Part shown: piece by piece, positions 29,571-46,537 of the stretch
Position numbering within the stretch: the stretch's first letter is position 1
Layout: each line of letters starts with the position of its first letter
Program-made: the position numbers and the translations under genes
Assembly: GCA_026388715.1 (NCBI GenBank)
Contig: JAPLJF010000035.1
Coordinates: forward strand, 1-64,000
Reading direction: 5' to 3'
DNA length: 64,000 bases
Source of the DNA: Deltaproteobacteria bacterium
Lineage (GTDB): Bacteria > Desulfobacterota > Desulfobulbia > Desulfobulbales > Desulfocapsaceae
Notes under the pieces: generated by a model
Seen by the model: only the letters and a program-made list of their open reading frames with translations
Told to the model about the DNA's origin: nothing
Database searches by the model: none

Positions 29571-30803
29571 TTAATTTGCCTTTTTACGAAGATACGTCGG
29601 GGTCTCCAGATAGTCCTCATTCCAGGGTCGTGCTTCCTTCTGATTGCGCGCCACTTCTTTACGGGGTGAGGAAACACCGAGGTTATCAAAACCTTCAAAA
29701 TTAGATTGCAGCAGAGGGGTAACAAAAGTTGGCCGCGGGTTAGCCGGAGCTGGTGCGGCCGGGGTCTCCTGCGTAGTCATAATTTTCACTGACTTGCGCG
29801 CTTCCTCCAGCAACGTGATCGGCTCATTTTTCTTGACCACATTACCTATTCCCGTTGCAATAACAGTAACATGCAGTTCATCACCAAGTGTTTCATCATA
29901 GAGCACACCGAGTACAATTTTAGCATCCTCATCCACTTTACTTTGAATAAGGGCCGATACCTCCATATACTCAGCCAAGGTCAAACTCTCTTGTGTTGCC
30001 GAGACGTTGATAATCAAGCCACGAGCGCCATCTATCCCCACATCTTCAAGAAGTTGATTATCAATGGCCCGCTTGGCGGCCTCAGTCGCCCTGTTTTCAC
30101 CAACAGCCGAACCAGCCCCCATAATGGCTGGCCCCACTTCCCGCATGACCGTACGCAGATCAGCAAAGTCGGCATTAATCATCCCTGGTACATTGATCAA
30201 ATCCGTGATCCCTTTAACCGCCTGCAACAGAACAAGATCGGCCATGACCAGCATGTCAGAAAGCCTGGTATTTTTCTGCATAAGAGAGAGAAGTCGATCA
30301 TTAGGAACGGTAATGATGGTATCCGCGTATTTTCGCAGTTCTTCCCAACCTGCCTCGGCGTTGCGCATGCGGGCTTTGCCTTCAAAATGAAACGGTTTGG
30401 TCACCACTGCCACGGTGAGCGCACCTAACTCTTTGCTCACCTTGGCCACAACAGGGGCGGCACCTGTTCCGGTTCCCCCACCCAGTCCTGCCGCAACAAA
30501 GACCATATCACTGCCCTTAAGGACTTTCTTGAGTTCCTCCAGGGACTCATGGGCGGCCTGAGCGCCGATTTCCGGGTCAGTGCCAGCACCCAAGCCTTTG
30601 GTAATACTGGGGCCAATCTGCAGACAGGTATCAGCACGAGACTGGTTCAAGGCCTGCATATCCGTATTGGCCACAATAAACTCAACACCCTGAAGCTTAT
30701 TGTTGACCATGGTGTTTATGGCATTCCCGCCGCCACCGCCAACACCAATAACCTTTATTACAGCAACCCCTTCTGTTTCCGCCATTCTAAACGGCATAGT
30801 CAT
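29571..30803 (-). CDS. ftsZ: Cell division GTPase FtsZ
   Basis: FtsZ forms the cytokinetic ring. The 410-residue product has the N-terminal [11 protein letters not shown] nucleotide loop, the tubulin signature G-G-G-T-G-T-G-A-A (~110), and N-A-D-F-A-D-L in the T7 loop that activates the neighbour's GTP. A ~60-residue linker follows, then the conserved C-terminal peptide [12 protein letters not shown] that binds FtsA/ZipA-type anchors. AGGGG lies 7 nt before the ATG at 30803. It is the last of the classical dcw genes, 115 bp after ftsA. Confidence 0.97.
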
Positions 30804-30918: not shown

Positions 30919-32181
30919 TCACATGATTTTTTTCATCCACGACTTCATCCGTCCAACCATGGAAGAATCATTGTTTATCTTCTGCCCCCGATTCTTGCGG
31001 CCATACATGACTAAACCGACAGCAGTCGTGCAACGCGGGGTATGCACCTCTTCAACACGTCCTCCGATCTTTACCGGATACCCGATCCGTACCGGCAGAT
31101 CAAAGATCTGCTCGGCCAGATCCACCAGATTGGCAAGCAATGCGGTTCCCCCTGTAATCACTACCCCGCCATGGATCTTGTTTTTCTGCCCGGAGTTGAT
31201 TAGCTCCTGGTTGACCATCTCAAGAATCTCGACAATGCGGGCCTGCAAAATATCCACCAGAACCTTCTGGGTCACCTTGCGCGGCTCCCGGTCCCCTACC
31301 GTCGGGACATCAACGACATGATTCGGCTTGATCAACGAGGCAATGGCGCTGCCATAATCCTCTTTTAACCGTTCTGCCTCCTGGAGCGGTGTCCGTAACC
31401 CCACCGACAGATCATTGGTCAGGTTATGTCCACCAAGCCCTATTTCACAGGTGTGCCTGATGGTTCCATCACAAAAAACCGCAAGATCAGTGGTTCCGCC
31501 ACCAATATCAAGAAGGGCCACCCCCAGTTCCATCTCATCAGCACTGAGCACGGCGTAGGCTGAGGCAATGGATTCCAGCACCATATCAAGCACCTCGAGT
31601 CCCGCCTTCCGGCAACAGGTATAGAGGTTATGCACGGCACCCATATCAGCGGTCACGATATGGACATTCGTGACGAGACGGACACCGGTCATCCCCAAAG
31701 GGTTCTGAATCCCCGTATGATCATCAACCATATACTCCTGGGGCAGGACGTGGATAATCTGCTGGTTTTCCGAGATCTTCACGGTCTTGGCAGCCACAAT
31801 CACATCTTCTACATCAGCCTCTTTGATCTCCCGGCCATTAATAGCCAGGATTCCAGGGCTGTTAAACCCTTTAATATGATTCCCGGCAATCCCGGCATAG
31901 ACACTATGCAGTTCACATCCGGCCGCGTCTTCCGCCTGCTCTACAGCCTGCCGTATGTTTTTGACGGTGGACTCAATATTGACCACAATACCTTTTTTCA
32001 GCCCCACTGACGGCGCAGTGCCGACACCAATAATATCTACCCCGTCATCGAAAACCTCACCCACTACACAGCATATTTTCGTGGTTCCTATATCAAGGCC
32101 AACCACGACTTCACCTGGCGCTCGCGTCCCTGCGTCCTGCTCCACCTCAACCACTGGCTCTATCTCTTTTATATCATCCAT
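30919..32181 (-). CDS. ftsA: Cell division actin-like protein FtsA
   Basis: FtsA is the actin-fold membrane anchor of FtsZ. The 420-residue product has the phosphate-1 loop G-L-D-I-G-T-T-K, the 1C subdomain typical of FtsA, phosphate-2 L-D-I-G-G-G-T-T-D, the adenosine motif V-V-I-T-G-G-T-A-L-L, and a C-terminal amphipathic helix (M-V-G-R-M-K-S-W-M-K-K-I-M) for membrane binding. The N-terminus has a ~20-residue acidic extension before the fold. It is 6 bp from ftsQ, in the usual Q-A-Z order. Confidence 0.96.
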   Translation of the reverse strand: MDDIKEIEPVVEVEQDAGTRAPGEVVVGLDIGTTKICCVVGEVFDDGVDIIGVGTAPSVGLKKGIVVNIESTVKNIRQAVEQAEDAAGCELHSVYAGIAGNHIKGFNSPGILAINGREIKEADVEDVIVAAKTVKISENQQIIHVLPQEYMVDDHTGIQNPLGMTGVRLVTNVHIVTADMGAVHNLYTCCRKAGLEVLDMVLESIASAYAVLSADEMELGVALLDIGGGTTDLAVFCDGTIRHTCEIGLGGHNLTNDLSVGLRTPLQEAERLKEDYGSAIASLIKPNHVVDVPTVGDREPRKVTQKVLVDILQARIVEILEMVNQELINSGQKNKIHGGVVITGGTALLANLVDLAEQIFDLPVRIGYPVKIGGRVEEVHTPRCTTAVGLVMYGRKNRGQKINNDSSMVGRMKSWMKKIM

Positions 32182-32187
32182 CAGTTT

Positions 32188-33288
32188 TCAATCCGATCCG
32201 CTGTGTGCAACCAGCACCTTGTTTTCCAGATAATCCATACGAATATAGACAACATCCGCAATGGTCATTCCCTGCCCTGTATCTTTATACAAAACCTCTA
32301 ACACTCTTTTCAAGCGACTATATTTCGTTCTGACATCCCCCTTGCCAAAATAAATAGGAAAGGGATAATCAACCAGATAGATGGTCATTCCCGTATCCTG
32401 ATCAAGATGAATCTCGGAAAGATTCTGAACCGGAAAATTAGGATTATTCTGTTTTACCAGTTTAAGCAAGGCCAGAGACTCACGAATCATCGCCCTCCGG
32501 TCTCCATCGCCGCTCCCATCACCCCTGGATCCTGCGGCATTAGGCCGTCTCTGGCCATCATCTCTTTTTGCATCCAGACCGGTTATAATGGGAAAGTCCA
32601 TATCCTGTCCCGGCTCAACTGGTGCAAACGCAACCCCGCTCTTATCCAGATAAAAAAACTGCTTGCGGCCGGAAATCTCCTGGGCAATCAGGGCCTCTGC
32701 TTCATACTCCTTAATGGAGATCACCAGCACACCTGGCCAATCACGTTTGACCACAGCCTCCGATATCCATGGATGTGCCCTGAGAATTGCCTCAATATAT
32801 GTCGGCCTAAGGGTCAGCAGGCTGGTCTGATACCTGACCCCGGCAAGTTCACGAATCAACGTGGGAGTAGTCTTCCGACAACCGGTGATCGTGATCTCCC
32901 GTATCTTAAAAAAGGGCAGATCAGACACAGCATTCACAAGTGGGCCATATGCCAAAAACGCCATAAACACTATGCCCGCCAGAAAGCACAGTGAAATCAA
33001 AAGATTCCTGACCCTGCTTTTTGCCACAGCAGGAGACCGTTTCAACTCTTTACGTCTGGCAGCCCTTTGAAACCAGGCCCGTATCCTGCTGACCAGCCCA
33101 CTACGCTTCTGAACCTGAGCGGCGGATCTTGAGGTAAACACCGGCTGATCACTGCGACCAGCAACAGAACCAGCACGGACAACTCTCTTTTTCTTTTTGT
33201 GCAAACAAAAAAGAGAACCGATCTTTTTAATAAAGTTCACCACGTGCCCAAACCATTCAGAGAAAATGAACTTCCGGTTCAAGGACAA
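32188..33288 (-). CDS. ftsQ: Cell division protein FtsQ (POTRA)
   Basis: FtsQ is a single-pass inner-membrane protein that nucleates the FtsQLB complex. A transmembrane segment at ~95-117 (I-S-L-C-F-L-A-G-I-V-F-M-A) is followed by a POTRA domain (I-R-E-I-T-I-T-G-C ... H-P-W-I-S-E-A-V-V-K-R-D-W-P-G) and the FtsQ beta domain. Two oddities: the cytoplasmic N-terminus is ~95 residues and very basic, where 20-50 is common. A glycine/arginine/aspartate-rich insert (~256-275) interrupts the periplasmic domain. No internal Met gives a shorter start that keeps the membrane helix. It overlaps murB by 32 nt. Confidence 0.88.
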   Translation of the reverse strand: MSLNRKFIFSEWFGHVVNFIKKIGSLFCLHKKKKRVVRAGSVAGRSDQPVFTSRSAAQVQKRSGLVSRIRAWFQRAARRKELKRSPAVAKSRVRNLLISLCFLAGIVFMAFLAYGPLVNAVSDLPFFKIREITITGCRKTTPTLIRELAGVRYQTSLLTLRPTYIEAILRAHPWISEAVVKRDWPGVLVISIKEYEAEALIAQEISGRKQFFYLDKSGVAFAPVEPGQDMDFPIITGLDAKRDDGQRRPNAAGSRGDGSGDGDRRAMIRESLALLKLVKQNNPNFPVQNLSEIHLDQDTGMTIYLVDYPFPIYFGKGDVRTKYSRLKRVLEVLYKDTGQGMTIADVVYIRMDYLENKVLVAHSGSD

Positions 33289-35609: not shown

Positions 35610-36779
35610 TTATACTTTATTTCCGCTCATTATTTCCAGACAGACATCGACTATCCTTTCCGTGGCATCAGGACGGCCCTTGGCCCGCATGGCCTCGGCC
35701 ATTTCTTGTAACCGACCTGGATTGCCGACAAGCTCCGCCAGGGTCTCAGCCAGTTTCCTGGCCGTCAGTTCCCGCTCCACCAAAACGAGAGCTCCACCAC
35801 TTTCGGCATAATAACGAGCATTTTTGTGTTGATGATCATCAGCGGCAAAAGGGTAAGGAATCAATACTGCCGGTTTTCCAAGAACTGCCAACTCGGCAAG
35901 GGTTGTGGCTCCTGCCCTTGAGAGAAGCAAATCACTCCTGGCATACACCTCAGCCATATCCGTAAAAAAAGCGGCCACTGTGGCCTTGATTCCGGCCTGT
36001 TCGTAGACTGATTTCACCCACTCCTCATCCGCCGCGCCGGTCTGATGAATAACCTGGATACCTGCCGGCAACAACCTGCCATGCACGGTCAGGGCATCCA
36101 CTACCAGTTCATTGACCCGGTGCGCGCCCAAACTGCCTCCCAGAATCAGAATCGTTACCTTGTCACCTATTTTTCTGGATGGCCACTCTTCGTTCATCCC
36201 TGCAGAGAGCGGCACTCGGACATCCATGTCCTGCAGCTGTCCAGCCAGTTCCAGAATCTGGCGCCGCACAGGATTGCCGGTCAGCACCGTCTTTCCTGCC
36301 GGGAAAAAGACCTCACTGCCCGGGATAGAAAGACAGATTCTGGTAGCCAGGGCCCCTAATTTTCTATTGGCAAGCCCGGGTACGGAATTCTGTTCATGAA
36401 TCACGGTTGGCCGCCCCAAGATCCTGGCCGCAGCCACCACCGGCCCGGTCACGTATCCGCCGACACCAACCACCAGATGAGGACGAAAACGGAGGATATA
36501 CCAGAGGGCCTCGACAAAGGCAACCGGGAGCAGAATAAGGGCCTGAGCCAAAGCCGGCAGCCCCTTTCCCTTTAATCCCTGACAATGAATGGCCCTGGCA
36601 CTGAAACCATGTTGAGCAAGGCTGGTCGTATCCATCTTCCGGCGCGTCCCCACAAAAAGAACCTTGGTTCCAGGAAGACGCCGACACAGGGCCTCGGCTG
36701 TGGCAATGGCCGGAAAGAGGTGTCCACCAGTGCCGCCGCCAGTCAGCAACAGACGTATGGGCTCTCCTCCCTTCCCCAT
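35610..36779 (-). CDS. murG: Undecaprenyldiphospho-muramoylpentapeptide beta-N-acetylglucosaminyltransferase
   Basis: MurG converts lipid I to lipid II at the inner face of the membrane. Evidence: the N-terminal L-L-L-T-G-G-G-T-G-G-H-L-F-P-A glycine loop, H-E-Q-N-S-V-P-G-L-A-N-R, I-L-G-G-S-L-G-A, and the C-terminal sugar-nucleotide site R-A-G-A-T-T-L-A-E-L with P-Y-P-F-A-A-D-D-H-Q-H-K-N-A. I chose the ATG at 36779, which overlaps the murD stop as TGATG; the frame is open to 36800 but those codons are inside murD. ftsW, usually found between murD and murG, is absent. Confidence 0.95.
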   Translation of the reverse strand: MGKGGEPIRLLLTGGGTGGHLFPAIATAEALCRRLPGTKVLFVGTRRKMDTTSLAQHGFSARAIHCQGLKGKGLPALAQALILLPVAFVEALWYILRFRPHLVVGVGGYVTGPVVAAARILGRPTVIHEQNSVPGLANRKLGALATRICLSIPGSEVFFPAGKTVLTGNPVRRQILELAGQLQDMDVRVPLSAGMNEEWPSRKIGDKVTILILGGSLGAHRVNELVVDALTVHGRLLPAGIQVIHQTGAADEEWVKSVYEQAGIKATVAAFFTDMAEVYARSDLLLSRAGATTLAELAVLGKPAVLIPYPFAADDHQHKNARYYAESGGALVLVERELTARKLAETLAELVGNPGRLQEMAEAMRAKGRPDATERIVDVCLEIMSGNKV

Positions 36780-38233
36780 CAGGCGCCACCAACCTTGCAT
36801 CCAACCGGCTCTGCCTGAACGGGCAGGGACGACCTGATGCCGCAGGAGACAGGGATGGCGGGAACGGCCTCAATCGCCTTCCGCACCGCATCAGCAAAGA
36901 CCTTGCCGCGATGGCCATAATTCTCGAACATATCAAAACTGGCGCAGGCCGGAGAAAGTAGCACCACATCCCCTGCTCTGGCAATGGACGCCGCCAGAAA
37001 CACCGCTGCCTCCATTGACGCGGCCTTCTTTATCTCAACCATACCGGCCAGGGCCTGTGCAATCAGATCTGTGGCCTCACCAATCAGGATCAGACAGCGC
37101 ACCTTATTACCAACACTCTCTCGCAACAGGGTATAATCATCACCCTTATCTCGGCCTCCGGCAATAAGGATCACGTTGCCGGCAAAATTGGCCAAGGCGC
37201 TGAGAACGGCCCCGGTATTGGTGGCCTTGGAGTCATCATAATACAAGACCCCTGCGCCTTCCCCAACCAGGGCCATCCGATGCGCCGCCACCTGAAAGGC
37301 CGCCAGGCCTTGCACTATCGCCTCCGGTGCGCAACCAAGGGTGCGCGCGGCAAGGATGGCCGCGGCGCTGTTCAATCCCCCGGTAGCAGTAGCAAGCATC
37401 GATCCCGCGAGGTCATACCGCTCTTGTTTCCCCTGCCATCGCAAATGAATGCAATGTCCAACAACTTGCGCCTGACAATCGCCGTCATGGCCGAAAAGCA
37501 GCAGTTGCTGCCCCCCGTCAAGTCCAGCCGCCAACTCTCGACAAAACGTGTCATCACCGCTCACAATCGCGGTATCCTGCGGCCCCTGCCCGGAAAAGAT
37601 CTTCATCTTGGCGGCGGCATAACCTGCCATACTACCGTGGCGATCCAGATGATCCGGGGTCACATTGAGCAGAATAGCCACATCGGCCTTAAAGGCCCCT
37701 GCAGACTCCAGTTGAAAACTCGAAAGCTCCAGGACCAGCACATCAACATCATCAGGACTGCTCAGATAGTCAAAGAGTGATGTCCCAATATTGCCACCAA
37801 CAAAAACCTTCTTCCCCGCCCTTTGCAGCAACTCACCAATGAGGGCCGTCACCGTGGTCTTGCCATTGGTGCCGGTGATCGCCACCACGGGTTTATGCAC
37901 AAGTGGAGCAGCCATGGCCAATTCACCCAACACCGGAATCCCAAGGTCTCGAAGCTGCTGCAGGATTTCCAGATCCTGTCTGATCCCCGGGCTGACCAGG
38001 ATTTGGTCAGCCTTCCGAAGAAAGGTCAGGGTATGGCTACCACATTCGTACTTCACCCCATACTCAGTAAGAAAGGCCAGATCTGCAGCCGGCAACTGTT
38101 GAACACTCCTGGCATCAGAAACCGACACTTTCACTCCCTGCGACACCAGATATCGCATCGCCGCCCGACCGGAGACCCCCAGTCCCATTACCGCGACATG
38201 AGTGCCGGCTTTTTTTTCATCTTGCATGTTCAT
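36779..38233 (-). CDS. murD: UDP-N-acetylmuramoylalanine--D-glutamate ligase
   Basis: MurD adds D-glutamate to UDP-MurNAc-L-Ala. The 484-residue product has the N-terminal Rossmann-like V-M-G-L-G-V-S-G-R-A, the ATP loop V-A-I-T-G-T-N-G-K-T-T-V-T (~116), L-E-L-S-S-F-Q-L-E, N-V-T-P-D-H-L-D-R-H-G, and the late A-G-G-R-D-K-G-D-D and S-P-A-C-A-S-F-D-M-F signatures. It overlaps the mraY stop (TGATG) and the murG start in the same way, so the three genes are translationally coupled. An in-frame ATG two codons later is possible. Confidence 0.96.
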   Translation of the reverse strand: MNMQDEKKAGTHVAVMGLGVSGRAAMRYLVSQGVKVSVSDARSVQQLPAADLAFLTEYGVKYECGSHTLTFLRKADQILVSPGIRQDLEILQQLRDLGIPVLGELAMAAPLVHKPVVAITGTNGKTTVTALIGELLQRAGKKVFVGGNIGTSLFDYLSSPDDVDVLVLELSSFQLESAGAFKADVAILLNVTPDHLDRHGSMAGYAAAKMKIFSGQGPQDTAIVSGDDTFCRELAAGLDGGQQLLLFGHDGDCQAQVVGHCIHLRWQGKQERYDLAGSMLATATGGLNSAAAILAARTLGCAPEAIVQGLAAFQVAAHRMALVGEGAGVLYYDDSKATNTGAVLSALANFAGNVILIAGGRDKGDDYTLLRESVGNKVRCLILIGEATDLIAQALAGMVEIKKAASMEAAVFLAASIARAGDVVLLSPACASFDMFENYGHRGKVFADAVRKAIEAVPAIPVSCGIRSSLPVQAEPVGCKVGGA

Positions 38234-39312
38234 CAGCGCAGTTTCAAGGTGGCAATGGCAAAAAGCCCCAGGATGATCGACACGATCCAGAACCTGACCA
38301 CCACCTTTGATTCATGCCAGCCTTTTTTCTCAAAATGATGATGAAAAGGGGCCATAAGAAAGATCCGTTTACCTTTGGTCATCTTAAAATACCCCACCTG
38401 CAAGATGACTGATAACGCCTCCATGACAAAAATCCCGCCAACAATAGCCAGCAGGATCTCCTGTTTAATAATAATGGCAACCGAACCCAAGGCCCCTCCC
38501 AGGGCAAGGGAACCCACATCACCCATGAAGATCTGGGCCGGATAGGCATTAAACCACAAAAAACCAAGACAGGCCCCAACCATGGCCCCGCAGAAGATCG
38601 CCAACTCTCCTGCTCCCGGCACAAAAGGGATCTGCAGATAATCCGCCAGTACTATATTCCCGGCTATATAGGAAAAAATGAGATAGACTGACCCGGAGAT
38701 AACCGTTGGACCAGTGGCCAGTCCATCCAGACCATCCGTGAGATTCACCGCATTGGAGGCTCCGACAATCACGAGTACCGCAAAAACAAGATAGAACCAG
38801 CCAAGATCAGGATGAATATTCTTAAAAAAAGGCACACTCAACTGCCCGTCAAATCCTGGATGCAGCAGGACAAAGAGACCAACCACCAAGGCGCCGCCAA
38901 TCTGCAATACCATTTTTCCTTTAGCACTCAATCCTTTGCTGTTTTTCTTGCGCACCTTTTTCAGATCATCAATGGCACCAATCATACCAAAAAAAAGGGT
39001 CACAAAGAGCAGCAACCACACAAACGAACTGTCCAGCCTGGCCCAAAGCAGCGTCGAACTCGTAATGGCGGAAAGGATCAGCACCCCGCCCATGGTGGGC
39101 ACCCCCTGTTTTGCCAGATGGGTTGCCGGACCATCATCCCGCACCACCTGTCCTATCTGAAAACGGCGCAAGGCCCTGATAAAGATCGGTCCAAGAATAA
39201 TCATCAGGAGAAAGGCTGTCATCGCCCCGCCAATAGAGCGCACGGTAATATAGCGAAAGACGTTAAACCCGCTAAAGATCGTGTGCAGAGGATAGAGGAG
39301 ATGGTAGAGCAT
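38233..39312 (-). CDS. mraY: Phospho-N-acetylmuramoyl-pentapeptide transferase
   Basis: MraY links phospho-MurNAc-pentapeptide to undecaprenyl phosphate, forming lipid I. The 359-residue protein is a polytopic membrane enzyme (about ten hydrophobic segments). It has P-T-M-G-G-V-L-I-L near the start, the catalytic [31 protein letters not shown] and the [12 protein letters not shown] signature. It is 44 bp downstream of murEF and directly coupled to murD. Confidence 0.97.
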
Positions 39313-39356: not shown

Positions 39357-42300
39357 TCAAGGAACCATTAACTGCTCAACCACGGTTTCAAAACGCATAC
39401 CCCTTGAACCTTTGACCAGTAACCAGTCGCCAGCCTGCAATTGACCCGCAACCAGCAGCCCTTCAATCCAAGGCACCATATCTTTCTTCTCCTGAAAAAC
39501 CCTGATCCGCTGACTATCCATGCCTGCCATCCTGGCCCCCGTGGCAGTGTCATCGGCGAAATTTCCGACCAGTGCCAGATAATCAACACCCTGACCCGCC
39601 GCGTAACGCCCTGCCTCCCGGTGCGCGCTGGCACTTGTCGGCCCCAGCTCCAGCATATCTCCCAGAATGGCCACCCGTCTTCCTCCATCCTGCTGGCCAA
39701 GGGTCGCAAGCCCTGCCCGCATGGAGGCCGGATTGGCATTATAGGTATCATTTAAAATAAACAATCCGCCCTTTCCTGTGACAATCTGCATGCGTTTATC
39801 AGCAGGCTGAAAGTTCCCAAGGCCTCTGGCAATCTCACTGATGCCAATTCCTGCGGCATAGGCAATAGCGGCGGCGGCCACAGCATTAGAGATATTATGA
39901 ACGCCCGGCACATGCAGAGTCACAGGAATTGCCTCCCCGGCGGCATGGAGAACAAAACTCTGGGTGACGCTTCCCGCTTTCTGCACGTCAGAGGCAAAGA
40001 CCTGAGGCGCAGAGCCCATACCTTCTTCAGCTGCGGCATATGAAATCTTTTTTTGCGGGTACTTTTCGGCACAGGTCCGCACATGGGGATCATCCAGATT
40101 TACAACCAGCGTAGTGCCTGCACCGCTGCTGGCAAACAACTCCTCTTTGGCTCGGGCAACCCCCTCCAGAGAATGCAGGCCCTCCAGATGGGCGGCATGG
40201 ACATTGACGATACAGGCGATATCAGGATCAGCGATCTGGGCCAGCCTTGCGATCTCTCCGGGCCGGTTCATCCCCATCTCCAGAATGACTGCCTTCTGTC
40301 CCGGGCCAAGGGGTAAGAGCGAGAGAGGCAACCCGATAAGGTTATTAAAATTGCCTCTGGTCTTCAGTACCTGATCAGGCGGCGCATCCTGGTGGGAGGG
40401 CCAATGCTGTTCAAAAATTGCTGCAATCATCTCCTTGACCGTGGTCTTGCCGCAACTTCCGGTAATCCCCACCACCAACGGATGACTGACCGTCTTCATC
40501 ACCTGCCGTCGATACGCGGCCAGATCACCAAGGGCCCGCAAGGTATCATCCACCAAGAGACAGGGAATGGCGGGAAGCATCTCTTGAGGTGTATCCTTGC
40601 CAACAACAAGACAACCTGCACCCGCAGCCACTACCTGTTCCAGAAAATCATGGCCGTCAAAGCGCTCACCGGCAAGGGCCACAAAAATATCGCCCACCGC
40701 CATCTTCCGGCTGTCCGTGACCACTGCCCCAAGCTCTGCAGCTGCCACCAACGGACCAGAAGTCAACACGCCCTTGGTAGCCAGCTTAAGACTCTCAAGC
40801 CTCCAGGCAGTCAGTGCCTTTTTTGCCTCAAGACTGTCATCAAAAAAACGCTTGCCATCCTGACTGAGCTGATACAGCTCATGCCCTTTGCCGGCAATGA
40901 GCACGATATCCTCTGCTGTTGCTGCAGCAATGGCCGCAGCGATAGCCTGGGCACGGCTATGGATCACCAGAAAACCCTTCTCGTTCCCGGCTGAGGTTCT
41001 GAGCCAGGAAGACGGCCGCTCGGCCAGTCCACTCAAGCGGACACCGGACACTATCTGGGCGACTATATCCTGAGGCGATTCACTGCGCGGGTTATCATCG
41101 GTGACGATCACCACATCGCAGCGATGCCCGGCAATTTCACCCATAATCGCCCGTTTTCCTTTGTCCCGGTCACCACCACAGCCAAAGACACAGATCAATC
41201 TCTGATGCGCAAGTCGGGCAAGAGTCGCTATCACCTTTTCCAAGGCATCCGGGGTATGGGCGTAATCGACAAAAACCGCAGGCCGAAAGTGCGCCTCCTG
41301 CTCTGCTGGCAGCACCCTCTGCAATCGCCCCGGGGCCCCGGACGCATGCCCCAGCATAGAGGATAAAGCCGTTGCCTTAACTCCCAAGGCCAATCCAATC
41401 CCCATCACGGTCTGCAGGTTTTCCACATTGAAGTCACCCACCAGAGGGGTTGTAACCTGCACTTCATCTGCTGGAACGTGCAGGGTTATAACAGTGGAAT
41501 TCAGACCTGACTGGACTGTCAAGGGATAGATATCACAGTCACCGCTACCGACAGGCAGGCGAGGCGACGCCGAGACCCCAGCCATGACTCCCGCAGCTTG
41601 GCCGTCACCACCCCAACCACACTGCAACACCTGAGCGTCCTGAACTCTACACAATTCAACAAGGTGCCGCATCCTTTTCTCTTCTTCAGGGTCATGACGG
41701 ACGGTACGGGTAATAACGGCCTTGCCACCCTTTTTCAGATGATCACGAAATAGCAGGGCCTTGGCCGCAAAATAATCATCCATGTCCTGATGATAATCCA
41801 GATGATCACGAGAGAGATTGGTAAAGGCGAGCACATCAAATTGCAGATCACCAAGGCGGCGCTGGACCAGGGCATGAGAAGAAACCTCCATGACCACATG
41901 GGTCACACCTCCGTCTGCCATCTGCCGAAGGAGGTCCTGGAGCAATAATGGCTCAGGAGTCGTAAAAGGGGCGGGAATTATAACATCCTGCCCCTTGGCA
42001 TCACGGTAACGATAGTTGACTGTGCCGATGACCCCAACTGGCAGCCCGAGCTGTCTCAAGACGCTCTCAAGGAGGTAGCTGACCGTGGTCTTGCCATTGG
42101 TGCCGGTGATGCCAACAAGGGTCAAGCCCTGTGCTGGTTGCCCATACAGATTGGCCGCGATCTGCGCATAGGCCAGATGGCTGTCCGCAACGACAATCAC
42201 ACACTGGCCACAGTGATCACACCCCGCAAGCTGTTCTGCGGTCAATCTGCCTTCTTCCACAACCAATGCCGCGCAGCCACTGGCCATCACCTGTTCCAGA

Positions 42301-42515
42301 TAGGCATGACCATCAGTCCTGCTACCGGCCAGGGCCACAAAGAGAAACCCGGCCTGGACCTTCCGCGAATCGGCCGTCACCCCAGAAACCGTTATCCCGG
42401 CTGGCATTTTTACACCCAAAACAGAATAGGCGACCGAGCCCAAAAGCGCCTGCAGAGAATATTCGCTGCTCTCACTCTCTTGAACAAACTGCTTTTCAGG
42501 TTTTACATGATTCAT
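39357..42515 (-). CDS. murE: MurE-MurF fusion: tripeptide ligase plus D-Ala-D-Ala-adding ligase
   Basis: This ~1052-residue protein carries two complete Mur ligases. The MurE half (~20-585) has the T-G-T-N-G-K-T-T ATP loop, S-S-H-A-L, D-Y-A-H-T-P-D-A-L and D-D-N-P-R-S-E. The D-N-P-R box predicts meso-diaminopimelate as the added residue. The MurF half (~590-1052) restarts with a V-T-D-S-R-K substrate domain, then G-I-T-G-S-C-G-K-T-T, E-M-G-M-N-R-P-G-E-I and N-D-T-Y-N-A-N-P. Homology begins soon after the ATG at 42515, so the upstream open codons are left out. It takes the place of separate murE and murF genes. Confidence 0.93.
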   Translation of the reverse strand: MNHVKPEKQFVQESESSEYSLQALLGSVAYSVLGVKMPAGITVSGVTADSRKVQAGFLFVALAGSRTDGHAYLEQVMASGCAALVVEEGRLTAEQLAGCDHCGQCVIVVADSHLAYAQIAANLYGQPAQGLTLVGITGTNGKTTVSYLLESVLRQLGLPVGVIGTVNYRYRDAKGQDVIIPAPFTTPEPLLLQDLLRQMADGGVTHVVMEVSSHALVQRRLGDLQFDVLAFTNLSRDHLDYHQDMDDYFAAKALLFRDHLKKGGKAVITRTVRHDPEEEKRMRHLVELCRVQDAQVLQCGWGGDGQAAGVMAGVSASPRLPVGSGDCDIYPLTVQSGLNSTVITLHVPADEVQVTTPLVGDFNVENLQTVMGIGLALGVKATALSSMLGHASGAPGRLQRVLPAEQEAHFRPAVFVDYAHTPDALEKVIATLARLAHQRLICVFGCGGDRDKGKRAIMGEIAGHRCDVVIVTDDNPRSESPQDIVAQIVSGVRLSGLAERPSSWLRTSAGNEKGFLVIHSRAQAIAAAIAAATAEDIVLIAGKGHELYQLSQDGKRFFDDSLEAKKALTAWRLESLKLATKGVLTSGPLVAAAELGAVVTDSRKMAVGDIFVALAGERFDGHDFLEQVVAAGAGCLVVGKDTPQEMLPAIPCLLVDDTLRALGDLAAYRRQVMKTVSHPLVVGITGSCGKTTVKEMIAAIFEQHWPSHQDAPPDQVLKTRGNFNNLIGLPLSLLPLGPGQKAVILEMGMNRPGEIARLAQIADPDIACIVNVHAAHLEGLHSLEGVARAKEELFASSGAGTTLVVNLDDPHVRTCAEKYPQKKISYAAAEEGMGSAPQVFASDVQKAGSVTQSFVLHAAGEAIPVTLHVPGVHNISNAVAAAAIAYAAGIGISEIARGLGNFQPADKRMQIVTGKGGLFILNDTYNANPASMRAGLATLGQQDGGRRVAILGDMLELGPTSASAHREAGRYAAGQGVDYLALVGNFADDTATGARMAGMDSQRIRVFQEKKDMVPWIEGLLVAGQLQAGDWLLVKGSRGMRFETVVEQLMVP

Positions 42516-42594
42516 GAAGAATGGTTGAGAGATAAAAGTTGAATGTCGAATGATAAAACCGAAATCAATGGCCAAAGAAGACTACCTGATTTTT

Positions 42595-44589
42595 TTACTT
42601 TTTACTTTCAACTTTATTCTTTATTTTCCCATCACTTGCTGCCTTACTTTTAGTAAGCGCTACCTTATCAGTTTTTTCATCTTTTTTCAAAGTGAGCAGA
42701 CACTCTTGCACACTATCCAGAGATATCCCTGCTGACGGGCTCTGAGCCACAACCCGGCCAGTCCCCTGAATCCGGATCTTGACCTTTTTGTCCTGCAATA
42801 ACCGCAAGGCCCGCCTCAAACTCATGCCGACAAGATCAGGCATGAGAGGAGGATGCAATTCCAGCATGGTCTCCAGCCCGGCCAAGGCTTTTTTCTCCTG
42901 TTCCTGCTGGTAATTACTCTCTTTTCTCTCAGACATGCTCATCATATCCGAGAGGTTTTTATGCACCTGCTGCAGGGCCACCATCGACGGCAGAATCTTA
43001 CCGGCTGGTCCGACAAGATCCAATATATCTTTGGCAGAGGCAAGGGAGGGTTCCAGATATGGCTGACGCACCATCACCATGAGGATCAGCTCTGGTTTCT
43101 CTGCCGGTAGCAGAGCAAACATCATTCTGTTCCTGAGATATTCGCCGCCTCTGGTCATGCTTTCGCCATCCCTGGCTCGCATCCCAAGAGCACTTCCTGC
43201 GGGGCGCACGACACTTGGATCCCCATGTCCTGCTTCAACCGGCTGGAAAGAAAGCTCCCGGGCATCAACAAAAACGGAATCAAGCACCCCTTTATGCCCT
43301 TTGGCCTTGAATAATCTCCAGATTTCTGCCGATGCAGGATGCGACTCCTGCGGCGCGCTTATTGGCGGCCGGAAAGAATACTCGCGCTCACCGTTTCGTT
43401 CCAAAACACGATCAAGGACATGCGGCAACACCTGATGACTGCCATTCAAGAGATAATTCATTCCAAGAAGTATCTGTATAGGCGTTGCCTCAACCGGCAT
43501 GGTTCCTTTTTCATCTCCCGATACCATAGGTTTTTTTTCAGGCCCAGCAATATCGCCTCTGCCATTCTGCACTGAAAAATCCAGATCCGGCATAGCATTC
43601 AAACCTAACCGCTTCCACAAACGAAGCTCGCTGCCGGTATCTGCGACTCCTGCCGTAATACTCCAGGGATAGCCCTGCTCATACTTGTCCCAATCTGCCT
43701 GAAGCAAGGCCGCATCATGAAAAAAGTCCCGTATTTCCAAAGGGATAACCACTGGCTCAAGCAAGATATCAACAAGAAGTTTTTTATTATATTGATAGAA
43801 TATATTCGGGTCAAAAGAGGGGAAATTAGCATTGGCAACAATAGCGCCCGTTTCTGTCTCCATAAGAAGGGCTGCAATCTCCGCGCCCTCATGCACTGCC
43901 CCGAGCGCCGCCACGTATTTTTCAAGAAAATCCTGTATTTTTAGATCGATGCTCAAAACAAGATGCTGACCGCTAATGCCAGTCCGAGCATGTCCCGCCA
44001 AATCAACATGGGGAAATTCATCCTGACTAATGTTGGCCTGATTAAGGAGGCGATTATAATAATGCTCGACCCCGGCCAATCCCATATTCTGATCGGCAAA
44101 ACCAATCACATGAGCAGCAACACCCTTATACGGGTAATAACGAACCTGTTCCCGATCCAGAAAAACACCAGGAAGATGAAGATCCGTCACGGCCTTTTCT
44201 TCTTCCAGGCTGATATTTTTTGCCAACCAGATTCGCTGCGCATCCTTTTCTAAACGCCCCAGCAACTCTTGCTCGTGCATCCCCAGAACAGTGGCAAGTT
44301 GCTCAGCACTCTCGTGAATATCTCCCAACTCTCTGGGTCTTACATAGACTGAAACCCGGTCAAGAGACAGGGCCATCTCCTTGAAATTCCGGTCATAGAT
44401 TATACCGCGCCCATTCTTTTTCGTATCCTGCGCCTTTCCCTGCCAAAAAAATACCTTGCGAGCAAGGTCTGTTATTTCCTGTTTATACAGAACACCGCCC
44501 ACAACTCCGGCAACAACCAGGGCCATACACAGAACCACCAACCTGCTTCGTCCGCTCTTTTTTGCATTTCGACGCGACTGTATGACCAT
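42595..44589 (-). CDS. FtsI-like class B PBP lacking all catalytic motifs, with C-terminal PASTA domain
   Basis: This 664-residue protein sits in the ftsI position. It has one transmembrane helix (~19-40), then the class B dimerisation features G-R-G-I-I-Y-D-R-N (~60) and R-Y-Y-P-Y-K-G-V-A-A-H-V-I-G-F, and a transpeptidase-like domain (~215-555) opening with L-S-I-D-L-K-I-Q. Where P-G-S-T-F-K is expected (~280) it reads E-P-V-V-I-P-L. The S-x-N position (~320) reads A-D-T-G-S-E-L, and the K-T-G-T position (~463) reads P-A-G-S-A-L-G. A PASTA domain follows (~590-645). The frame is intact and the spacing preserved, so this looks like a maintained pseudo-enzyme, not decay. It is likely a divisome scaffold. 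Confidence 0.8.
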   Translation of the reverse strand: MVIQSRRNAKKSGRSRLVVLCMALVVAGVVGGVLYKQEITDLARKVFFWQGKAQDTKKNGRGIIYDRNFKEMALSLDRVSVYVRPRELGDIHESAEQLATVLGMHEQELLGRLEKDAQRIWLAKNISLEEEKAVTDLHLPGVFLDREQVRYYPYKGVAAHVIGFADQNMGLAGVEHYYNRLLNQANISQDEFPHVDLAGHARTGISGQHLVLSIDLKIQDFLEKYVAALGAVHEGAEIAALLMETETGAIVANANFPSFDPNIFYQYNKKLLVDILLEPVVIPLEIRDFFHDAALLQADWDKYEQGYPWSITAGVADTGSELRLWKRLGLNAMPDLDFSVQNGRGDIAGPEKKPMVSGDEKGTMPVEATPIQILLGMNYLLNGSHQVLPHVLDRVLERNGEREYSFRPPISAPQESHPASAEIWRLFKAKGHKGVLDSVFVDARELSFQPVEAGHGDPSVVRPAGSALGMRARDGESMTRGGEYLRNRMMFALLPAEKPELILMVMVRQPYLEPSLASAKDILDLVGPAGKILPSMVALQQVHKNLSDMMSMSERKESNYQQEQEKKALAGLETMLELHPPLMPDLVGMSLRRALRLLQDKKVKIRIQGTGRVVAQSPSAGISLDSVQECLLTLKKDEKTDKVALTKSKAASDGKIKNKVESKK

Positions 44590-44641: not shown

Positions 44642-45004
44642 CTAAAACCGAGTGACCTGTCCTTTTTCAGGGACATACAGCGCAAGCTGATTTGCCGCCA
44701 TCGTATTAAGATATTCAGGAGAATAAAGATGGGCCCGTTTAGCCCTGAGCTTGATATTTTCATCCATAAGGACAGAACGACCTTCCTCGGCAGCCAGAAT
44801 TGTTGCGGCATTCCGCTCTGCAGAGGAAGAGAGCCAGAAATGAGCCAGAAACAACAAAGGGAAAAAAAGGAGCAACACCTTTCCTACAGCTATCCATAAC
44901 ACTTTTGGGCCAATCAGGCCCAAGGCTTTTTGACGTAACTGTTGACGCATCGGAGATGACATCATGGGACGACAATATGTTGGGGCAGAGTGATTGATCA
45001 ACAT
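44642..45004 (-). CDS. ftsL: FtsL-like cell division protein
   Basis: This 120-residue bitopic protein has a short cytoplasmic region, one transmembrane segment (~37-58, V-L-L-L-F-F-P-L-L-F-L-A-H-F) and a periplasmic heptad-rich helix. It ends in L-x-x-M-A-A-N-Q-L-A-L-Y-V-P-E-K-G-Q-V, the usual FtsL terminal pattern. It has the right position between rsmH and ftsI and the right size. AGGAG seven nt upstream supports the ATG at 45004. FtsL sequences diverge strongly, so assignment relies on position and architecture. Confidence 0.78.
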   Translation of the reverse strand: MLINHSAPTYCRPMMSSPMRQQLRQKALGLIGPKVLWIAVGKVLLLFFPLLFLAHFWLSSSAERNAATILAAEEGRSVLMDENIKLRAKRAHLYSPEYLNTMAANQLALYVPEKGQVTRF

Positions 45005-45167: not shown

Positions 45168-46067
45168 TCACTTCTTGACCGCTACCCTCAATCGTGCACT
45201 ACGCGACCTGGGATTTGCCGCTATCTCCGCAGGTGTTGGCATTATGGGCTTGGAGGTAAGGATCTCCAGATCTTCCTGTTCTCTCAATTTTCGTTTCACC
45301 AACCGATCTTCCAGAGAATGAAACGAAATCACACACAACCTAGCCCCTGATCGAAGCAGTGGGGCCACATCATCAAGGATCCGGGCCAGATTCTCCAGCT
45401 CACTATTCACCGCGATACGCAAGGCCTGAAAAACCTTGGTCGCCACATGAATCTTCTCTGGATGAAAACGCCGAGGGATAGCCCGAGCCACAACAGCGGC
45501 CAGTTGCCCAGAGGTCAGAATCTTCTCAGGAAACCGGGCGCGCACGATCTCACGGGCTATCGGTCTGGCCTGTTTTTCATCACCATAATAAAAAAAAATA
45601 TCTGCCAGCTCTTTCTCGGTACATGAGGCCAGCAGCGATGCTGCCGTCACTTCTCGCCTCGTATCCATCCGCATATCAAGCGGCTCATCCCGCTGAAAGC
45701 TGAAACCACGGCCGCCCCATTCCAGTTGCAGGGATGAAAGACCGATATCAATAAGAACGCCATCTACCTGTTCCACTCCAAGCTCAGTGAGCCCTTCGGC
45801 AATTTCGGCAAAATTACGTCTGACAATGGTCAAACGATCAGCAAAAGGCTGTAACCTGACCCGACTGCTCGCAATGGCGGCCTCATCCCATTCAAAGGCG
45901 ATGACCCGACCATCCGGCGCGGAGTGGCGCAAAATCGCCTCGGTGTGCCCGCCAAGACCTAAGGTGCCATCCACATATACTCCACCTGAACAGGGAGCGA
46001 GATACTGAAGGACCTCTTCGAGCAGAACCGAGCAATGGATTGGCGTTTCCGACCAATCAGACGCCAT
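45168..46067 (-). CDS. rsmH: 16S rRNA (cytosine1402-N4)-methyltransferase
   Basis: RsmH (MraW) methylates C1402 in the ribosomal P site with S-adenosylmethionine. The 299-residue product begins with H-C-S-V-L-L-E-E-V-L and the SAM motif Y-V-D-G-T-L-G-L-G-G-H-T, then D-I-G-L-S-S-L-Q-L-E, P-L-D-M-R-M-D and C-V-I-S-F-H-S-L-E-D-R-L-V-K. Its ATG overlaps the mraZ stop (TGATG), the standard mraZ-rsmH coupling at the head of dcw clusters. Confidence 0.96.
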   Translation of the reverse strand: MASDWSETPIHCSVLLEEVLQYLAPCSGGVYVDGTLGLGGHTEAILRHSAPDGRVIAFEWDEAAIASSRVRLQPFADRLTIVRRNFAEIAEGLTELGVEQVDGVLIDIGLSSLQLEWGGRGFSFQRDEPLDMRMDTRREVTAASLLASCTEKELADIFFYYGDEKQARPIAREIVRARFPEKILTSGQLAAVVARAIPRRFHPEKIHVATKVFQALRIAVNSELENLARILDDVAPLLRSGARLCVISFHSLEDRLVKRKLREQEDLEILTSKPIMPTPAEIAANPRSRSARLRVAVKK

Positions 46068-46537
46068 CAGAAAATCCCCAATCTGGCCAGGCTCTCCTTG
46101 TAATCCCCAAAGTTCTCACGGGTGGCCTGATTCTCCAGCTCCCAGGCGTCTTTGTCCCAGATCTCCACATAATCAAGCATTCCAGCCAAGACCACATCCT
46201 GAACAATGCCTGCCTCACTGCGCAGCGATGGCGGCAGTAACACTCGGCCCTGTTTGTCAGGAAGGCAGGGAGTAACACCAGAGACCACCAGACGAATAAA
46301 ATTGGTCAGACCTGGCTGCTCACGGCCATTAGTCAACAACTTGTTTTCCAGGATCTCCCACTGCGAAAGCGGAAAGGCGCGCAGATGGGCACCCCAATTG
46401 GTCACCATTAGCTCCTCGGACTCATACTGCGCAAGGACGTCCCGAAACCGGCTGGGGATATTCAATCGTCCTTTGATATCGAGCGCGTGTTCCGACCTGC
46501 CGCGAAATCTGCTGGTTGTCAAGTTGCTGTTTTCCAT
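46067..46537 (-). CDS. mraZ: Transcriptional regulator MraZ
   Basis: MraZ is a double SpoVT/AbrB-fold DNA-binding protein that represses the dcw promoter in other bacteria. The 156-residue product starts its first repeat with F-R-G-R-S-E-H-A-L-D-I-K-G-R-L-N-I-P and has a second repeat with D-K-Q-G-R-V-L-L-P. This is the normal length. It is the first gene of the cluster, and the five GTGG-type boxes just upstream suggest autoregulation. The GGGAGG before the ATG is only ~2 nt away, an unusually short spacing. Confidence 0.94.
   Translation of the reverse strand: MENSNLTTSRFRGRSEHALDIKGRLNIPSRFRDVLAQYESEELMVTNWGAHLRAFPLSQWEILENKLLTNGREQPGLTNFIRLVVSGVTPCLPDKQGRVLLPPSLRSEAGIVQDVVLAGMLDYVEIWDKDAWELENQATRENFGDYKESLARLGIF

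Follow-up and report, generated by a model that had tools for sequence, protein, structure and literature searches.

What does a division transpeptidase do once its active site is gone, and which enzyme then builds the septum? This question is raised by the dcw cluster in the window analyzed here, a stretch of 64,000 nucleotides (contig JAPLJF010000035.1 of assembly GCA_026388715.1) from a genus that a scan of named records places among uncultured Desulfocapsaceae. FtsW–FtsI has been described as indispensable for building the septal wall in all walled bacteria (PMC10693644). The window carries, in the place of ftsI, a gene whose product has the architecture of a class B penicillin-binding protein (PBP) and none of its catalytic motifs; we designate it pseudo-ftsI and its product pseudo-FtsI. 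To our knowledge, C. difficile is the well-studied exception to the FtsW–FtsI requirement.

Pseudo-FtsI and its altered active site

The dcw cluster lies on the minus strand and is ordered mraZ (46067–46537), rsmH (mraW; 45168–46067), a gene for an FtsL-like small membrane protein of 120 aa (44642–45004), pseudo-ftsI (42595–44589), a murE–murF fusion directly downstream (1072 aa; 39357–42575), mraY (38233–39312), murD (36779–38233), murG (35610–36800), murC, murB, ftsQ (32188–33288; POTRA_1 and FtsQ_DivIB_C domains), ftsA (30919–32181) and ftsZ (29571–30803). murB was named by position and look, as was the FtsL-like protein, which has no Pfam match and consists of one hydrophobic segment followed by a coiled-coil-like stretch. 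The same fusion of MurE and MurF in one ORF is seen elsewhere in the family and in several further families of the class.

The pseudo-ftsI frame starts with ATG and runs unbroken through 664 codons. Its 664-aa product is a true FtsI by descent that retains the class B PBP fold: it occupies the dcw slot between ftsL and murE, has a transmembrane helix and a PBP_dimer pedestal, and is placed by a tree of pedestal sequences with FtsI, apart from MrdA. The predicted N-terminal transmembrane helix spans residues 15–50 (44440–44547, minus strand, as for all parts of the gene), the pedestal residues 59–212 (43954–44415), the transpeptidase-like domain residues 213–545 (42955–43953) and the PASTA domain about residues 581–640 (42670–42849), the last delimited by a match to Pfam PF03793 at 583–625 together with conservation. 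Pfam scores were 50.9 bits for PBP_dimer and 38.1 bits for PASTA, whereas Transpeptidase stayed at 16.6 bits, below its cut-off of 22.1, and matched residues 239–270 only, the first ~32 positions of the domain. A phmmer search of PDB sequences matched SpoVD and FtsI/PBP3, with alignments confined almost wholly to the pedestal and the first part of the transpeptidase domain. The fold is nevertheless kept in an AlphaFold2 model built with 69 homologues (mean pLDDT 79.5; 313 residues at 90 or above), which superimposed by VIA-align on SpoVD with a Z score of 32.0 (399 residues, 3.2 Å, 22% identity) and on P. aeruginosa PBP3 with a Z score of about 29–30. The intact scaffold and uninterrupted frame reported in a preliminary description of this locus are thus upheld.

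That description had also stated that every transpeptidase motif is lost, and alignment together with regular-expression searches bears this out: SxxK, SxN and KTG are all absent from the transpeptidase domain. In the whole protein, S-x-x-K occurs only at residues 553 and 652, both outside that domain, K-[TS]-G occurs once, in the cytoplasmic tail (residue 11), and S-x-N does not occur at all. When aligned to E. coli FtsI (STVK/SSN/KTG) and to the intact MrdA of the same genome (STYK/SCD/KTG), the SxxK site of pseudo-FtsI reads E285-I-R-D288 (43726–43737), and the counterpart of the GGKTGSAQ strand of MrdA is VDARELSF, at about residues 441–448. Two particulars of the earlier account have to be corrected. 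The spacing between the motif positions is not normal, as a deletion of ~37 residues, judged against MrdA, has removed the stretch containing SxN. In addition, the sequence PAGSALG, previously assigned to the KTG position, sits within an insertion (residues 461–480) that 83% of the relatives lack. Neither by its motifs nor by its Pfam score does pseudo-FtsI read as a D,D-transpeptidase.

In congeneric pairs, dN/dS (Nei–Gojobori) was 0.17–0.26 for the whole gene and mostly 0.05–0.2 for the pedestal, values that indicate purifying selection and agree with the earlier view that the gene is not in recent decay. Pseudo-FtsI sequences from six genomes are 37% identical in the pedestal, 25% in the transpeptidase-like domain and 45% in PASTA; in MrdA of the same six genomes, the pattern is reversed, with 55% identity in the pedestal and 59% in the transpeptidase domain. 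The pedestal and PASTA are the most constrained parts of pseudo-FtsI, and the invariant residues of the family fall in these two and in the first strands of the transpeptidase domain. Judged from this pattern of constraint, pseudo-ftsI has a function, and one that differs from transpeptidation.

Distribution of the motif loss and its coupling to the absence of FtsW

The motifs are lost in 132 of 133 retrieved FtsI sequences from 15 families, a set that includes the window's own sequence and contains some genomes twice; because the loss is common to so many relatives, it is attributable neither to chance nor to sequencing error. The one intact sequence (L180) belongs to an outgroup MAG that has kept ftsW between murD and murG. 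Matches to the S-x-x-K expression in the relatives were discarded, as they were scattered and none fell at the aligned site. The catalytically dead form was found in all sequences of the same genus and family and of 15 families in the order, including those from the isolates Desulfoprunum benzoelyticum, Desulfofustis glycolicus and Desulforhopalus vacuolatus and from the closed genomes of Desulfopila sp. IMCC35008 and Desulfosediminicola flagellatus. We refer to this group as the class Desulfobulbia, a label that is our reading of named records and of the genomes sampled, in which class and order are coextensive. The preliminary description had noted that an intact gene in close relatives would expose the window's copy as an error; the relatives share the loss instead. 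Its account of a loss in one protein is correct for that protein but overlooked that the state is class-wide, ancient and tied to the loss of FtsW. Separately, a frameshift in the single-contig 4.3 Mb genome G030 (C1: 747820–749639; L095) splits pseudo-ftsI into two overlapping ORFs.

The murD and murG genes of the window share 22 bp (36779–36800, minus strand) at the slot that ftsW occupies in E. coli and the outgroups, and in the dcw clusters of other class members murD likewise leads directly to murG without ftsW. An FtsW hidden elsewhere in the genome was considered and rejected, because the SEDS family (PF01098) matched RodA alone, encoded next to MrdA, as was also the case in closed genomes of the class; pseudo-FtsI therefore has no cognate FtsW in its genome. 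None of 116 class genomes that were at least 90% complete had a second SEDS protein besides RodA, whereas two or three were counted in 66 of the 83 genomes from other parts of the phylum. Two SEDS pieces seen in G047, a closed genome of 2.77 Mb, represent one broken rodA, split by a frameshift (C1: 137697–138757; L213) next to an intact MrdA.

The loss of the FtsI motifs is coupled to that of ftsW beyond the class as well, as judged from 14 genomes of the phylum outside Desulfobulbia in which FtsI was read. Where two SEDS proteins were present, FtsI had SxxK and SSN in seven of seven genomes and KTG in six, the seventh ORF ending early, and ftsW lay between murD and murG in all five intact-FtsI genomes whose dcw cluster was read. 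G143 and G204, each with one SEDS protein, have a dead FtsI and a dcw cluster without ftsW (L263 and L267 in G143; L262 and L266 in G204, whose protein is shorter and seemingly without PASTA). In five other genomes with one SEDS protein (G149, G152, G153, G181 and G200), we found MrdA as the single class B PBP and no FtsI, so that FtsW and FtsI both seem to be gone. All the dead forms fell on the FtsI side of the pedestal tree, in which Desulfobulbia were grouped with 84% support; G143 and G204 adjoined them at 55% only, and the deep FtsI nodes were weakly supported. A single ancestral loss before Desulfobulbia would be the simplest reading of these sequences, although it is not proven.

Candidate septal synthases and the proposed role of pseudo-FtsI

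Since FtsW is lost, a substitute is needed for the septal glycosyltransferase as well. The possibility that the genome encodes another FtsI as a replacement was rejected, as an inventory of class B PBPs and SEDS proteins, one of the checks proposed earlier, returned MrdA and pseudo-FtsI as the only two PBP_dimer proteins and RodA as the only SEDS protein. RodA–MrdA is accordingly the sole intact SEDS–class B pair, with the SEDS catalytic Asp present. The genome also encodes four class A PBPs. Two are of ~640 aa and 1125 aa, one of 776 aa carries UB2H like PBP1B, and one of 772 aa resembles PBP1C; a fifth transglycosylase match is a GT51-only ORF. The 1125-aa protein (G000, C15: 38000–47000; L218) has long extra stretches around its glycosyltransferase and transpeptidase domains, and similar sizes occur throughout the class. 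Class A types of ~620–720 aa and ~1100–1150 aa were present in all eight near-complete genomes examined other than G059 and G100, and G053 (1.7 Mb) has these two types only, the UB2H-size type being absent. If a class A PBP builds the septum, these two types would be the best candidates.

In G059, we found no MreB, RodA or MrdA, while class A PBPs and a dcw cluster with dead FtsI were kept. This genome was set aside as a natural test of RodA–MrdA because hemH, which adjoins rodA in relatives, is also missing, making an assembly gap likely, at least at the mre locus. G100 shares this problem; we found no MreB, RodA, MrdA or class A PBP in it, and it keeps the dcw cluster with dead FtsI.

Our favored interpretation, held with some confidence, is that pseudo-FtsI is an ancient pseudo-enzyme which, in a divisome based on FtsZ and working without FtsWI catalysis, serves as a non-catalytic scaffold or regulator, a class A PBP being the likely septal synthase. 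The ftsW gene of the dcw cluster and the active site of FtsI would have been lost no later than the origin of Desulfobulbia, FtsWI would have ceased to make septal wall, and FtsI would have been retained as a membrane-anchored divisome scaffold. Its pedestal may hold FtsL/FtsQ-type partners, and PASTA may touch the wall or a precursor; via these contacts, pseudo-FtsI would recruit or regulate the actual septal synthase, most likely a class A PBP, which combines glycosyltransferase and transpeptidase in one protein. We infer the scaffold role from the protein family and from published precedents. The preliminary description had put forward the same role, with another PBP supplying the activity; the selection on the gene, the conservation of pedestal and PASTA and the intact PBPs elsewhere fit that idea, which stands as a proposal. 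Extending it, we lean toward a view of Desulfobulbia, and probably of sister lineages, as dividing by FtsZ with FtsWI replaced and with a pseudo-enzyme FtsI docking the other synthase to FtsQ/FtsL.

A class A PBP is weakly preferred over RodA–MrdA as the septal synthase, because of the precedent of C. difficile. RodA–MrdA might instead make both the lateral and the septal wall, with pseudo-FtsI as an adaptor that links FtsQ/FtsL to this pair at the Z-ring and replaces the FtsW–FtsI contacts. This is a possibility of lower probability, for which the conserved catalytic residues of the only intact SEDS–class B pair and the retention of RodA–MrdA alone by some members of the phylum both speak. 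The FtsI pedestal normally contacts the SEDS protein in FtsWI, which would also suit such an adaptor. In C. difficile, however, RodA–PBP2 serves elongation and PBP1 makes the septum (PMC10693644).

The other explanations concern pseudo-FtsI itself. A sensory or regulatory role in place of a structural one, in which the empty transpeptidase domain and PASTA would gate division by binding peptidoglycan, muropeptides or lipid II, is unlikely: PASTA is among the best-conserved parts and the transpeptidase-like fold is kept under moderate constraint, but PASTA-like C-termini also occur in the intact FtsI of other phylum members, so that their retention need not mean a new role, and the pseudo-FtsI of G204 (L262) seems to stop ahead of any PASTA. 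A new catalytic activity on the transpeptidase fold is very improbable; although a 69-sequence alignment shows strong conservation of some residues of the transpeptidase-like domain, such as P308-W309 and W325, the columns with the highest conservation belong mainly to the pedestal and PASTA, and the region of the old pocket showed no cluster of conserved polar residues. Least credible of all is decay into a pseudogene or an error of assembly. The missing motifs and the frameshift in G030 would suit it, but the frames are open in 15 families, in closed genomes and in cultured isolates, and the class-wide spread together with the dN/dS values given above rules out assembly or sequencing error and recent decay.

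Relation to known division systems

In the open-licence literature, the only directly relevant paper that we found on an inactive FtsI or on division without FtsW in the phylum is a 2021 gene inventory from the same class, limited to four Desulfobulbaceae genomes, two of them of cable bacteria, in which ftsW, ftsN and zipA were reported absent; FtsI was taken as the active septal synthase there, and the lost active site was not mentioned (PMC7873302). A search of the same literature yielded no report of a catalytically dead FtsI or of the class-wide state, and no experiment on any Desulfobulbia divisome bearing on pseudo-FtsI. The absence of FtsW from four genomes was thus known, while for the dead FtsI and its class-wide extent no earlier paper was found.

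If our interpretation is correct, an exception to FtsWI also arose long ago in a distant Gram-negative class, and FtsI has a selectable function without catalysis, which would be a natural and ancient split of its structural from its catalytic role. The account of division in cable bacteria, which are assigned to Desulfobulbia, would then need revision where it assumed an active FtsI. The question is directly testable in cultured Desulfofustis glycolicus, Desulfoprunum benzoelyticum, Desulforhopalus vacuolatus and others.

Pseudo-FtsI resembles FtsI/PBP3 and the Firmicutes proteins PBP2B, PBP2x and PBP1 in its transmembrane helix, pedestal, transpeptidase fold and dcw position, and its C-terminal PASTA is as in other phylum members and Firmicutes homologues. 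Unlike FtsI/PBP3, it is devoid of SxxK, SxN and KTG, has the SxN segment deleted and has no FtsW partner in the genome. A separation of structure from catalysis has a precedent in PBP2B of B. subtilis, in which a form with a dead active site (S309A) supports division while PBP3 supplies the activity (PMC5656894). This form, however, is an engineered mutant rescued by PBP3 and not the natural state of a class.

The closest parallel to the proposed divisome is that of C. difficile, which has no functional FtsW/FtsI orthologues and in which the class A protein PBP1 drives division (PMC10693644), in a complex with the class B protein PBP3, whose catalysis is dispensable for its role in division (PMC12539705). 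Desulfobulbia are similar in that they divide without a functional FtsW/FtsI pair and, in the genome studied here, possess class A PBPs; a class B PBP acting non-catalytically beside a class A PBP is what we propose for them by analogy. The two systems differ in that C. difficile keeps a working dcw-encoded SpoVD/SpoVE for sporulation, whereas in the Gram-negative Desulfobulbia the dcw-encoded FtsI is dead and ftsW is gone.
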